Assembly (NCBI GenBank): GCA_005889225.1
Contig: VBEW01000041.1
Location: 1 to 32,190 of the forward strand
Direction: 5' to 3'
Length of the DNA stretch: 32,190 nt
DNA from: Chloroflexota bacterium
GTDB taxonomy: Bacteria; Chloroflexota; Dormibacteria; CF-121
Position numbers and translations under genes: made by a program. Shown here one piece after another: positions 8,213-30,145 of this stretch (its first letter is position 1; every line of letters begins with the position of its first letter). The notes under the pieces are model-generated. The model was not told where the DNA came from, ran no database searches, and was given only the letters and a program-made list of their open reading frames with translations.

Positions 8213-8225
8213 ATTGCTCTAAATA

Positions 8226-8258
8226 AGAGCCCGGGGTTACCCCGGGCTCTTTCTTTTT
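8226..8258 (+). terminator. Intrinsic terminator
   Basis: A perfect 11-bp inverted repeat (AGAGCCCGGGG / CCCCGGGCTCT, loop TTA) is followed directly by TTCTTTTT. It closes the kinase/regulator/microprotein unit and insulates it from the HD-GYP fusion gene. It is the clearest terminator on the plus strand. Confidence 0.9.
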
Positions 8259-8321: not shown

Positions 8322-10847
8322 ATGTCGGGCAGTTCGCTGGCATCGCGTTACGCCTGGGGACTCGGAACGGTCGGTCTGGCTTTCTGGGTGCTGACGATTC
8401 AGCAGGAAGCCCCGTGGGCCAATTCCAATTCCCACGAGCTCAGCACCACGGTCATTCTCGTAATCCTGAGCCTGCTTTCCGCCTTCTCGCCTATCCCGAC
8501 TCGGGGGGGCGGAACGTTGACCGTGACACTGGCGCCCCTTTTCGGTGCCGTCGCCGTCCCGCTTGCGCCGTGGGCCGTTATGACGGTCGCGGCGATCGGA
8601 ACGATCGACTCGCGGATTCCTGGAAGGCAAATCAGCTGGGGACGATTCCTCATGAACCGCGGAATGTACATCTTCGCCGCGGGTCTGCCCGCATTCTTGA
8701 TCCGGGAAACGGGCCTTACCCCTTGGGGTTACGGCGCCACGCTCGCCCTGATGTTGGCACTGAACACCATTCTCATCGGGATATTCTTCGCCCTGCACGA
8801 GGGGAAGTCACTTGTCTCAACAATACGGGCAGCCTACGCTGGGAATGGCCTCACCTACGTCGCCCTTCCCCTAACGGGAATCCTGGTTGGTCATCTACTG
8901 AGGGCGCCGGCGCTGGTCGATCAACTGATCGTGTTCCTCCTCTTTATGCCGCTATTGATTTACCGAGCCAGTATTCAGAAACAGCGTCGTCTGGACACGT
9001 GGCTCCGTGATTCTTACATCATGCAAAGCCGCGTGGTGGACAAGCGGGACGGCCAGACGTTTGGCCATTCCCAGAGGGTCGGTGAGCTCTGCGAAAGCGT
9101 GGCCCGCCTACTTCGCCTGCCCGACGAGGAATGCAACACGATCAGGGTGGGGGGGATTTTGCACGATCTGGGGAAGATTGCGATTCCCGATTCGATTCTC
9201 CTCAAGCCTGGAAAGCTGACCCCCGAGGAATACGAGATCATCAAGACGCACCCGGTTGAAGGCGCTCAAATTCTTGCCGAGCACCCGGAACAAAGAGAAG
9301 TTTCCGAGATTGTTCATCATCACCACGAACGGTGGGACGGCGCTGGCTATCCCGACAGATTGAAAGGGGAAATGATTCCGGTCGGATCGCGGATCGTGAA
9401 TGCATGCGATGCCTTCGACACGATCACCCAGGCCCGCGTATTCCGGCCGACCGTCAAGACGCCGGCCGAGGCGATTCGCGAACTCCGGGAGCTCGCCGGT
9501 AGCTGGTATGACCCGCAGGTAATCGGCGCCCTCGAAAAGATCGTCGCAGAGCGATGGGGCGTCGAGATTGCAGCGCGACCTGGTGAGGAACTCGAGGTGT
9601 CGCCCACGTACCAGGAGGCGCTCGCGGTTCGCCCTTTCCGTTTACTCTGGGTCGGCCAGGCGGTGTCGTATTTCGGCGACACGATGAACACGGCCGGACT
9701 CGTCATCATGCTCTTCGTCTTGACCCGGTCGGCGTCGATTGTCGCCCTCGGGCTGATCGCGAAGGCGATCCCAACCATTCTCTTCGGGCTGATCGCCGGG
9801 CCGCTCGTCGATCGGGTCAATCGACAGCGACTGATGATTCTTGCCGACCTGACGCGAGCGATTCTCACAGTTTCGATCCCCTTCTTTGGCACCTACTGGT
9901 TGCCGGGCGTCTTTATTGCCGTGTTCCTCATCGCATCGGCAAGCGCTTTCTTCAATCCAGCCAAACAGGCGATCCTTCCCAACCTGGTCCCAGGCCGCCT
10001 GCTGGTCCGAGCCAATGGTCTGGTCTCGTCCTCTGAAAAGACCATGGAACTGCTCGGATACTCGCTGGCCGGCTTGATCGTGGCCGCCGTCAGCTGGCTT
10101 CCCCTGTTTCTCATCGATGCTGGGACCTACCTCTTTTCCGCCGTCAGCCTGCTTGGCGTTCCAGACTTGGCGGTCCGTGCCAAAGGCGCCAGCTTCCGGC
10201 TCGCAAGCGATGTGGTTGAGGGTCTTCGGTTCGTGCTTCGAAACGCGGTGCTGCGCTCGACGATGACGCTAACTCTGGTGGTCGCCGTCTTCTTCGGCCT
10301 GACCACGACAATTCTTGTCGTGATGGCGTACGAGACGCTCAAGGGCGGGGCGAGTGCTTACGGATTCATCGAAGCGGCGATTGGCGCCGGCGCGATCGTG
10401 GGTGCCTTGATCGCCGCGGAGCTCGTGAATCGTACCCGCGCTGGCACGCTCCTCCTCTTGGGAGCTGGTGGTGTGGGTCTGGCCAATGTGTTTGTGGGAT
10501 TCTCCACGAATCTGAGCGCGACGATTGTTTTCCTGCTACTCGGCGGAATCCTCAACATGGTTTACTACGTGCCGCTCATTTCGGTCACGCAGCGGGAATC
10601 ACCTGACAGCGTTCGGGGTCGGGTCATGGCCACACGGTTCCTCCTGGTTCAGGGTGGATACCTTGCCGGCATGGCCCTCGCTGGTCCCATGAGTGACCGC
10701 TTTGGCGCGCCGATGGTATTTGTGGTTGGCGGCCTATTCCTCGTCGTGGCCGCCCTCTTAGGATTTGCCTTTCGAAGCATTCGGATGGCCACGTTACGCG
10801 ATGATTCACCCGCTGTCGCTGTCCTGAAAGCAACAGCCTCAGGGTAG
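8322..10847 (+). CDS. Membrane sensor / HD-GYP c-di-GMP phosphodiesterase / MFS transporter fusion
   Basis: One uninterrupted 841-codon frame joins three modules. Residues 1-225 have about eight hydrophobic segments, a membrane sensor region I do not recognise. Residues about 235-415 are an HD-GYP domain with the full signature: His281-Asp282 in LHDLGKIAIPDS, HHHHERWDGAGYP with GYP at 342-344, and ACDAFD. HD-GYP domains hydrolyse cyclic di-GMP. Residues about 437-830 are a 12-helix major facilitator of the MFS_3/drug-exporter type, starting PFRLLWVGQAVSYFGDTM and including AGPLVDRVNRQRLM. An in-frame GTG at 9597 (residue 426) could restart translation to make a free transporter. GC is visibly lower than in its neighbours (two counted 60-base lines gave 57%). 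The DUF5317 gene overlaps its stop by one base. The modules are secure; the working of the fusion is unknown. Confidence 0.9.
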   Translation: MSGSSLASRYAWGLGTVGLAFWVLTIQQEAPWANSNSHELSTTVILVILSLLSAFSPIPTRGGGTLTVTLAPLFGAVAVPLAPWAVMTVAAIGTIDSRIPGRQISWGRFLMNRGMYIFAAGLPAFLIRETGLTPWGYGATLALMLALNTILIGIFFALHEGKSLVSTIRAAYAGNGLTYVALPLTGILVGHLLRAPALVDQLIVFLLFMPLLIYRASIQKQRRLDTWLRDSYIMQSRVVDKRDGQTFGHSQRVGELCESVARLLRLPDEECNTIRVGGILHDLGKIAIPDSILLKPGKLTPEEYEIIKTHPVEGAQILAEHPEQREVSEIVHHHHERWDGAGYPDRLKGEMIPVGSRIVNACDAFDTITQARVFRPTVKTPAEAIRELRELAGSWYDPQVIGALEKIVAERWGVEIAARPGEELEVSPTYQEALAVRPFRLLWVGQAVSYFGDTMNTAGLVIMLFVLTRSASIVALGLIAKAIPTILFGLIAGPLVDRVNRQRLMILADLTRAILTVSIPFFGTYWLPGVFIAVFLIASASAFFNPAKQAILPNLVPGRLLVRANGLVSSSEKTMELLGYSLAGLIVAAVSWLPLFLIDAGTYLFSAVSLLGVPDLAVRAKGASFRLASDVVEGLRFVLRNAVLRSTMTLTLVVAVFFGLTTTILVVMAYETLKGGASAYGFIEAAIGAGAIVGALIAAELVNRTRAGTLLLLGAGGVGLANVFVGFSTNLSATIVFLLLGGILNMVYYVPLISVTQRESPDSVRGRVMATRFLLVQGGYLAGMALAGPMSDRFGAPMVFVVGGLFLVVAALLGFAFRSIRMATLRDDSPAVAVLKATASG

Positions 10848-11434
10848 TGTTCCTCTTTTTCGCTGTCATCGCCGCGGCGCTGGCCATCGCCGTGCTGATT
10901 GGCGGTGACGTCCGCCGGCTCAGCCACCTGCGCCTCCGCCACCTGGAGCTGCTCCTCGCCGCGTTTGCCGTCAAGATCTCGGTGGCTCTGCTGGGAACGA
11001 CCCATGCCCCGGCGGCGATCAACGCCGCCCGGCCGCTGAACGTGATCGGCGCGGTCTTGCTGCTCGCGGTGGTCTGGTTCAACTGGCGGATACCGGGGGC
11101 GATCGTGTTCGGCGCCGGCCTGCTGCTGAACTTGATCGTGATCGTCGCCTTTGGTGGACGGATGCCGGTGCTCCTGCCCCGCGATATCGACCCCAACTCG
11201 CCGGTGCTCGCCGCGCTCAAGGGGGGTCTCGATCCGCTGCACGTGGCGTTGCAGCAGCCACAGGGTCTGTGGTTCCTCGGCGATGTCTTTGCCATCCCCG
11301 GCATCGGCGGGCATGCCTCGCTGGTCAGCATCGGCGACCTGCTGATGGCGGCAGGCGTCGCCTGGCTGATCATCCGATGCAGCCAGCGAGAGCCGGCCCT
11401 ACGGGCGGCCTACGGTCCCAGCCCCTCCCGCTAG
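10847..11434 (+). CDS. DUF5317 family membrane protein
   Basis: A 195-residue integral membrane protein of the DUF5317 type. It starts at a GTG that shares its first base with the TAG stop of the HD-GYP/MFS gene. About five hydrophobic segments are seen (residues 1-17, 33-50, 63-78, 85-102 and one near 160-182). Recognition rests on GGDVRRLSHLRLRH near the N terminus, AFGGRMPVLLP in the middle and the C-terminal LVSIGDLLMAAG. The family has no established function as far as I know. The one-base overlap indicates translational coupling with the signalling fusion, so the two may act together in the membrane. GC returns to about 68% here, unlike the upstream gene. Confidence 0.75.
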   Translation: MFLFFAVIAAALAIAVLIGGDVRRLSHLRLRHLELLLAAFAVKISVALLGTTHAPAAINAARPLNVIGAVLLLAVVWFNWRIPGAIVFGAGLLLNLIVIVAFGGRMPVLLPRDIDPNSPVLAALKGGLDPLHVALQQPQGLWFLGDVFAIPGIGGHASLVSIGDLLMAAGVAWLIIRCSQREPALRAAYGPSPSR

Positions 11435-28564: not shown

Positions 28565-29698
28565 TCAGGCAGAGACCGTCAGGGTTGCTGCCCCGCGTCT
28601 AGCTTGTACCCGTTCCATCACGAAGAGAAACGTTTCCTTGGCTACGGCCGTCACCGGAGCCGCCAGGAACATGCCGATCAGACCGAACAGCGACGCGCCC
28701 AGCAGCGTGCTGAAGATCAAGAGCAGCGGGTGCACTTTCGTGAAGCGTCCGAGGATCAACGGTGCGACCAGATGGCTGTCGACTTGCTGGGCGACCAGCG
28801 CGAAAATGGCGACGATCAAGGGCAGCGGGCTGCCGGCGGGACTTTGTGCGAGTGCCAGCAGGACGGCCAACGTGCCCCAGATCAGCGGTCCGAAAAATGG
28901 AATGGCCTCGATGAAGAACGCGATCGTTCCCACCAGCAGTGCCGCCTTCAGTCCCATCACCCGCAGGCCGATCGTGACCACCACGCCGATGAACAGGCTG
29001 ATGATCAGCTGACCGCGGACATATTCGCTGAGGACCCGGTCCCAACGACGCATCAAATCCGCCGCAGGGTGCTGTTGTGCGGGTGGAAGGAACGACCGAA
29101 TCTCGCGCATCAGACGCGGTCCGTCGAGGAGCATGTAAAAGGTGAGCAATGGCACCGCGATCAGCTCGAGCAGCTTGGGAAAGAACGTCAAGGATGCGCT
29201 GACGGCGGCGGCTGCGGCGTCGCCCAGGCCACTGACGAAGTCACGAGCTTCCTGGTCCAGCGACTGCTGAACACTGGGCGGAAAGACACCGGCACCGTAG
29301 ATCGTGTTGCGCCAGTCCTGGAAGGTGGCGCTCAAGCGGTGGGCGATCTGCGGCTCCTGGCCACCCGTGCCAAAGAGGACCCGACCGAGGCGGTTTGCCT
29401 CTCCTGCCAGCAAGGGAGCCAGGACGAGGATCGCCACCACCAATACCCCCACAAAGGCGGCGAGGGCGAGGAATGCGGCCAGCACCCGAGGCGTGCGGCG
29501 GCCGCCCGGGCCGGGTTCGGTCATGGCGTTGACGAGCGGTAGCAGCAGGTAGGTCAGGAAGATCGCCAACAGGAACGGCAGAATGATCTGGCGGGCGAGA
29601 AAGATGATCAACAGCAGAAGGAGGAGCCCACCGCCGGCCCAGATTGCGCCGGGTAGGCGGCTTTTCAATCGCCGCGGCTCGCCGCTGCCGGTGCTCAT
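28565..29698 (-). CDS. AI-2E family transporter (permease), copy 2
   Basis: A 377-residue polytopic membrane protein of the AI-2E/UPF0118 family with about eight helices. N-terminal helices (GGLLLLLLIIFLARQIILPF and FLTYLLLPLVNAM) are followed by a large loop and C-terminal signatures EAIPFFGPLIWGTLAVLL and SHLVAPLILGRFTKVHPLLLI. The open frame extends far upstream to 30139, but that part is the antisense of the HTH gene. The ATG at 29698 puts the first helix at residue 18 and has a TACAAT box six bases upstream, so a leaderless start is likely. The substrate is unknown. It differs clearly from copy 1 at 11503, so this is an old paralogue rather than a recent duplication. Confidence 0.9.
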   Translation of the reverse strand: MSTGSGEPRRLKSRLPGAIWAGGGLLLLLLIIFLARQIILPFLLAIFLTYLLLPLVNAMTEPGPGGRRTPRVLAAFLALAAFVGVLVVAILVLAPLLAGEANRLGRVLFGTGGQEPQIAHRLSATFQDWRNTIYGAGVFPPSVQQSLDQEARDFVSGLGDAAAAAVSASLTFFPKLLELIAVPLLTFYMLLDGPRLMREIRSFLPPAQQHPAADLMRRWDRVLSEYVRGQLIISLFIGVVVTIGLRVMGLKAALLVGTIAFFIEAIPFFGPLIWGTLAVLLALAQSPAGSPLPLIVAIFALVAQQVDSHLVAPLILGRFTKVHPLLLIFSTLLGASLFGLIGMFLAAPVTAVAKETFLFVMERVQARRGAATLTVSA

Positions 29699-29704
29699 AG
29701 GGCG

Positions 29705-29710
29705 ATTGTA
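29705..29710 (-). promoter_or_regulatory. -10 element (TACAAT) of a probable leaderless AI-2E copy 2 transcript
   Basis: On the minus strand TACAAT ends six bases before the ATG at 29698. No ribosome-binding site is seen. The divergent HTH gene has its own -10-like box 39 bases away. Confidence 0.5.
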
Positions 29711-29748
29711 GGAAGGGTCGTTGAATTGCAGACCCATGAAGGCAGTGC

Positions 29749-29754
29749 TACGTT
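29749..29754 (+). promoter_or_regulatory. -10-like element (TACGTT) before the HTH regulator
   Basis: TACGTT fits TANNNT and ends seven bases before the GTG at 29762, suggesting a leaderless start there. The match is weaker than the other examples. Confidence 0.3.
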
Positions 29755-29761
29755 CAGCAAC

Positions 29762-30145
29762 GTGAATCGCGCGGCACGCTTGCATCGCCTGCTGGTCATC
29801 CTGTCGATGGCGACGGCGCGGCCGGGGATCCGGGCGGTCGACCTGGCGAAGACGCTCAAGGTCAGCACCCGAACGGTGTTTCGGGACCTCGCCGAGCTGC
29901 AGCGGCTCGGCTTCCCGGTCACCTTCGGCAACGGTTACCCCGCCCAGCAAGAGCTCTTCCGTCGCCGTCGCCGCCAGGAGATGTCGCAGATCATGGCTGA
30001 CCTGGTCGATCAGCAGCTGGACGTGGTTCGCCGCAAACTCCCACCCGAGGAGGCTGAGCGGGTGGTGGCGGAGGCGGTTCAGTACTTGCCAATGGAGGCC
30101 GCTGAGGCGGTCACCCGGGCCCTGGCGAAAGCCGTCCACGGGTAG
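29762..30145 (+). CDS. Stand-alone DeoR/WYL-type HTH regulator
   Basis: A 127-residue protein with an N-terminal winged helix of the HTH_11 type (RLHRLLVILSMATARPGIRAVDLAKTLKVSTRTVFRDLAELQRLGFPV). In full-length WYL or DeoR-like regulators a large ligand-binding domain follows. Here only a short basic linker (FRRRRRQEM) and a helical tail (ADLVDQQLDVVRRKLPPEE) remain, so it is a minimal regulator. The frame can start at TTG 29726, but GTG 29762 (MNRAARLH) fits the family N terminus. It diverges from AI-2E copy 2 with 63 bases between starts, so autoregulation and control of that permease are likely. tRNA-Val follows 18 bases later. Confidence 0.82.
   Translation: MNRAARLHRLLVILSMATARPGIRAVDLAKTLKVSTRTVFRDLAELQRLGFPVTFGNGYPAQQELFRRRRRQEMSQIMADLVDQQLDVVRRKLPPEEAERVVAEAVQYLPMEAAEAVTRALAKAVHG

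Follow-up and report, generated by a model that had tools for sequence, protein, structure and literature searches.

The HD-GYP enzymes PmGH (PDB 4MCW) and V-cGAP3 (PDB 5Z7C), the MFS_3 and drug:H+ antiporter exporters (EntS, Mef, Tap, and TIGR00900), and the SLC5-STAC histidine kinase transceptors CbrA and CrbS are the closest described systems to a gene that we analyzed in a 32,190-nucleotide stretch of Chloroflexota DNA, hereafter called the window. Its product shares the HD diad and the HHExxDGxGYP motif with both enzymes but carries Gln or Tyr at the position of PmGH Glu185 and a full transporter on the C-terminal side. With the exporters it has in common the MFS_3 Pfam family, 12 helices, and the MFS fold; it differs from them in scoring below every curated NCBIfam transporter cutoff and in being joined to an HD-GYP domain. 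The SLC5-STAC histidine kinases, such as CbrA, couple transport to phosphorylation (PMC13022988, PMC7096432). They likewise combine transporter and signaling domains in one chain and have a small partner in the complex (CbrX in the CbrA system), whereas the window protein belongs to another transporter family, contains a phosphodiesterase instead of a kinase, and bears its transporter C-terminally. Transporter-signaling fusions are already known as a kind, and the HD-GYP-MFS fusion is a variant of that kind. Our search of the open-access literature found no description of HD-GYP/MFS fusions. It also found no mention of the DUF5317 family (PF17248) and no published function for it; a member of this family, here bound up with HD-GYP and MFS, is encoded next to the fusion.

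Layout of the fusion gene

The preliminary description had read the locus as a single gene carrying all three modules. An uninterrupted frame of 841 amino acids, from ATG at 8322 to TAG at 10847 and devoid of internal stops, bears this out, as do its Pfam matches to HD_5 (residues 235 to 400; E = 3.3e-44), MFS_3 (435 to 820; 1.7e-35), and MFS_1 (442 to 783). The features of the locus are as follows.

8225..8251, + strand: intrinsic-terminator-like hairpin between the upstream kinase/regulator genes and the fusion gene (12-pair stem, T-rich tail)
8322..10847, + strand: fusion gene, membrane domain plus HD-GYP plus MFS_3 transporter (open frame, Pfam, homologues)
8322..8996, + strand: N-terminal membrane domain, residues 1 to 225, remotely MASE9-like (model helices, MASE9 matches of relatives)
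9024..9554, + strand: HD-GYP domain, residues 235 to 411, catalytic residues kept (Pfam HD_5, residue check)
9630..10778, + strand: MFS_3 module of the drug-exporter type, residues 437 to 819, 12 helices (Pfam, fold match to VMAT1/MdfA)
10847..11434, + strand: DUF5317 membrane protein (PF17248, E = 2.9e-28), starting on the last base of the fusion stop codon
11503..12561, + strand: AI-2E family permease, the next gene (PF01594, E = 2.4e-63; synteny in two families)

The hairpin was the strongest terminator-like match of the region, in which the total number of such matches did not exceed that of shuffled sequences. The minus strand of the window carries, at 28565 to 30139, another AI-2E permease-like frame, which is longer at its N terminus by about 165 residues.

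An AlphaFold model of the fusion protein, built on 26 homologues, was of moderate quality (pLDDT 75, pTM 0.52). Its N-terminal part contained eight helical elements (two of which were short), in agreement with the roughly eight sensor helices described earlier, and was followed by a 12-helix MFS part. Residues 1 to 227 had no Pfam match at an E value of 10 or less and did not reach the gathering score of MASE9 (PF20972). Relatives of this domain in neighboring signaling proteins matched MASE9 weakly (E values of 1e-5 to 5e-4), and one of the 26 fusion proteins did so at 0.0065.

The HD domain match, together with the HD diad and the HHExxDGxGYP motif, places the central module in the HD-GYP phosphodiesterase family, and His281-Asp282 and GYP 342-344 sit where they had been placed before. 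Catalytic residues were located by alignment with PmGH in 12 fused and 35 trio proteins (trio denoting HD-GYP, DUF5317, and MFS). The PmGH ligands H189, H221, D222, H250, H276, H277, and D305 correspond to H249, H281, D282, H310, H334, H335, and D363 of the fusion, and D183 and K225 to D243 and K285. All metal-ligand and catalytic positions except that of Glu185 were kept in 12/12 fused proteins. The Glu185 position is occupied by Gln245 in the window protein and by Gln or Tyr across the fused proteins, leaving seven of the eight ligands of PmGH. A full eight-ligand trinuclear site is a trait of PmGH that is not universal among HD-GYP proteins, and the substitution is compatible with a binuclear active enzyme. 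In PmGH, the E185A exchange reduced activity without abolishing it (PMC4159591); with Gln or Tyr as the ligand, activity of the fusion may therefore be lower. From these residues we infer an active and probably binuclear enzyme. Its substrate is assumed to be c-di-GMP, probably correctly; among solved structures, the relative that matches best in sequence (5Z7C) is a 3'3'-cGAMP enzyme.

The transporter module had been described as a 12-helix MFS of the drug-exporter type, which agrees with the modeled helices and with its score of 122.9 bits against the MFS_3 (PF05977) cutoff of 27. The transporter half of the model resembles the solved MFS structures VMAT1 and MdfA, with a TM-score of 0.82 to VMAT1 (normalized by target). 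The module lies outside the TIGR00900 H+ antiporter subfamily, scoring 199.6 bits against a curated cutoff of 319.6. An internal GTG at 9597 had been suggested as the start of a separate transporter. It is preceded by a Shine-Dalgarno-like GAGGA, yet we rejected it because the codon is not conserved, its Val being present in just 2 of 26 homologues.

Relative to a homologue of 92% identity, dN/dS values were 0.07 for the N-terminal domain, 0.03 for HD-GYP, and 0.085 for the MFS. Purifying selection acts on all three domains, most strongly on HD-GYP, and the 24-residue linker is relaxed (0.61 in the same comparison).

The one-base overlap of the DUF5317 gene with the fusion stop codon was confirmed. 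Its product belongs to PF17248 (99.2 bits versus a gathering score of 25) and contains residues invariant among 76 sequences: G91, N95, M106, P107, D146, S161, G163, and D164. The model was confident (pLDDT 92.9), with five long helices and a strand-rich loop at 106 to 161, and gave no fold match in the PDB.

Distribution and origin of the fusion

Close copies of the fusion protein, with 97, 92, and 65% identity, derive from soil genomes labeled "Chloroflexi." Within the order of the window, 12 full-length copies were found in 11 of 18 genomes (family f1). A second family of the class, f4, contributes about 22 genomes with near-full-length fusions of 31 to 35% identity; no copy appeared in families f2 and f3 of the class. 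A search of 400 genomes of the phylum confined the HD-GYP-MFS fusion to f1 and f4, and none was found among the best three or four candidates per genome for query P0001 in 247 Actinomycetota and 200 Bacillota genomes. No plasmid record covered 80% of the protein. One apparent Bacillota fusion (L369:1459-4089) is in fact two adjacent genes, a PAS-GGDEF-HD-GYP-like gene and, 42 bases beyond its end, a separate MFS gene.

An assembly artefact joining two genes is practically ruled out, because independent, unbroken full-length copies occur in more than 30 genomes. The recurrence of the full-length fusion in f1 and f4 also means that its homologues are not always two separate genes. Three fusion genes of f1 are interrupted: two run into contig ends (G005 and G012) and so were discarded as split genes, and one carries a deletion (G004). 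Small deletions at about the same place, with loss of the HD motif and a broken frame, were seen in two loci of different families (L110 in G004 and L111 in G108).

The fusion proteins group together as a single clade in both the MFS tree (support 98/89), where the clade also encloses three MFS-only genes of f4, and the HD tree (SH-aLRT 94), which indicates that the fusion has a single origin across both families. Gene order at the locus is conserved between f1 and f4 (response regulator, fusion, AI-2E permease, metallophosphoesterase, and two TrkA genes). The permease lies directly 3' of the fusion, or of its DUF5317 gene, in the window, L109, L111 to L120, L122, and L123. One clade and a syntenic locus suggest that either the fusion is older than the split of both families' orders or the neighborhood moved together.

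Association of HD-GYP, DUF5317, and MFS modules

DUF5317 was sought in the 400 Chloroflexota genomes, and 120 neighborhoods were scored with purpose-built profiles; the loci examined were the best-scoring DUF5317 matches, and the flanks differed among sets. The order HD-GYP-MFS then DUF5317 characterizes f1, the family of the window. In f4, the HD-GYP-MFS gene has no adjoining DUF5317 gene, which sits elsewhere in those genomes. In another class, the same modules are rearranged so that a DUF5317-MFS fusion gene follows the HD-GYP gene, an arrangement found in families f21, f11, and f32. Three separate overlapping genes in the order HD-GYP, DUF5317, and MFS also occur in f32 (examples of the three-gene trio are L258, L260, L267, and L269), and HD-GYP with DUF5317 but without MFS completes the Chloroflexota arrangements. 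Thus, the transporter has different fusion partners in different lineages, HD-GYP in one and DUF5317 in another. MFS fusions made up 33 of 123 DUF5317 loci, with HD-GYP at most 500 bases away in 32 of the 33; at unfused loci, HD-GYP was adjacent in 30 of 90.

Among the top-scoring loci of Bacillota, HD-GYP adjoined DUF5317 in 29/31, often with an overlap of 4 to 14 bases, and when the N-terminal plus HD-GYP part was used as query, most of its top Bacillota matches adjoined the surveyed DUF5317 genes. Actinomycetota loci had an adjacent HD-GYP in 4/30 and DUF5317-MFS fusions in 3/30. As a control, 40 HD-GYP loci chosen independently of DUF5317 showed no MFS or DUF5317 neighbor (0/40). The preliminary description had offered the DUF5317 protein as a possible third membrane partner; its pairing with HD-GYP in three phyla and its fusion to MFS elsewhere make a stronger case than was proposed.

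Other Actinomycetota DUF5317 genes have MASE9-like kinases or GGDEF proteins in their vicinity, and seven loci (L314, L317, L318, L320, L333, L206, and L242) place DUF5317 near MASE9-like membrane domains with histidine kinase or GGDEF outputs. The partner of DUF5317 may therefore be the membrane domain and not HD-GYP itself. For the Actinomycetota DUF5317-MFS fusions, support for a separate origin was marginal in a comparison with long branches (p-AU 0.047), and monophyly of all Chloroflexota trio MFS modules was not rejected (p = 0.38).

It could be argued that the genes were simply cotranscribed and fused while their modules stayed functionally independent. The freely evolving linker (dN/dS 0.61) and the remote DUF5317 gene of f4 are consistent with this, but at least two distinct fusion patterns bring the transporter into the same set and the HD-GYP/MFS fusion has been maintained across two orders, and we regard such neutral tethering as unlikely.

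A candidate signaling-transport complex

Established Rosetta-stone reasoning predicts joint action for modules that travel together and are fused in alternating combinations. Set-wise exchange and alternate fusion partners make it most likely, from gene arrangement, that HD-GYP, DUF5317, and MFS act in one physical complex.

In the mechanism that we propose, the fusion would be one subunit of a membrane signaling-transport complex. The membrane sensor domain would control the HD-GYP domain, a phosphodiesterase probably acting on c-di-GMP and covalently joined to the putative exporter, and DUF5317 would serve as membrane partner. The older unit would be HD-GYP plus DUF5317, which in Bacillota is complete with no transporter. 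An MFS_3 exporter would have been added to it in Chloroflexota, with later fusion to HD-GYP in this class and to DUF5317 in others. Transport would then be gated by the HD-GYP domain through bound nucleotide or its turnover, a presumed direction of control. The location of DUF5317 away from the fusion in f4 and the Gln or Tyr at the Glu185 ligand count against this mechanism. The case for a sensor-controlled complex with gated transport is about evenly balanced.

Two MFS_3 transporters (L121:881-2731 and L343:1438-3270) carry a C-terminal cyclic-nucleotide-binding domain, recognized by Pfam in L343 and by eye in L121, and their MFS parts adjoin the trio MFS modules in the MFS tree. They resemble the fusion in that a related MFS module is paired with a cytoplasmic domain of nucleotide-related function and differ from it in that this domain is a C-terminal binding domain, with neither a catalytic domain nor DUF5317. 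Such fusions suggest nucleotide control of transport. We favor the exporter as the output because of these nearby proteins, because HD-GYP plus DUF5317 exists alone with the MFS as an addition, and because the N-terminal domain already fills the sensor slot.

The last point and the nucleotide-binding relatives both speak against the converse, in which the MFS would be the sensor, substrate binding or passage would alter HD-GYP activity, and transport would set local c-di-GMP. HD-GYP is, however, the most constrained module, as fits an output, and CbrA-type transporter-signaling fusions provide a precedent (PMC13022988, PMC7096432), although the window protein falls outside the SLC5-STAC-kinase group, its Pfam matches being solely to the HD, HD_5, and MFS families. 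We consider this transceptor reading possible and would rank it just below the exporter as output, as nearly as likely. Alternatively, the MFS might export what the phosphodiesterase consumes or releases (c-di-GMP or pGpG), coupling hydrolysis to disposal. In Listeria, secretion of c-di-AMP is linked to the MFS pumps MdrM/MdrT (PMC3933815), but the sequence of the fusion lends no support as to substrate and most HD-GYP proteins work without an exporter, making this account very improbable.

The fusion is real and conserved, and it stands within a broader association of which our open-access literature search found no description. A so far undescribed DUF5317/HD-GYP/MFS_3 complex would directly couple cyclic-dinucleotide turnover to solute transport, and DUF5317 would be a general membrane partner of a large HD-GYP branch in Bacillota, Chloroflexota, and some Actinomycetota; that both parts hold together is as much as an even call. 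The phosphodiesterase could act on the transporter directly instead of via diffusing c-di-GMP, and the trio predicts a physical three-part complex. The natural arrangements, namely three genes, two kinds of fusion, and the phosphodiesterase-DUF5317 pair alone, form a ready comparison set. DUF5317, a family for which we found no published role in the open-access literature, thereby gains a first functional context.
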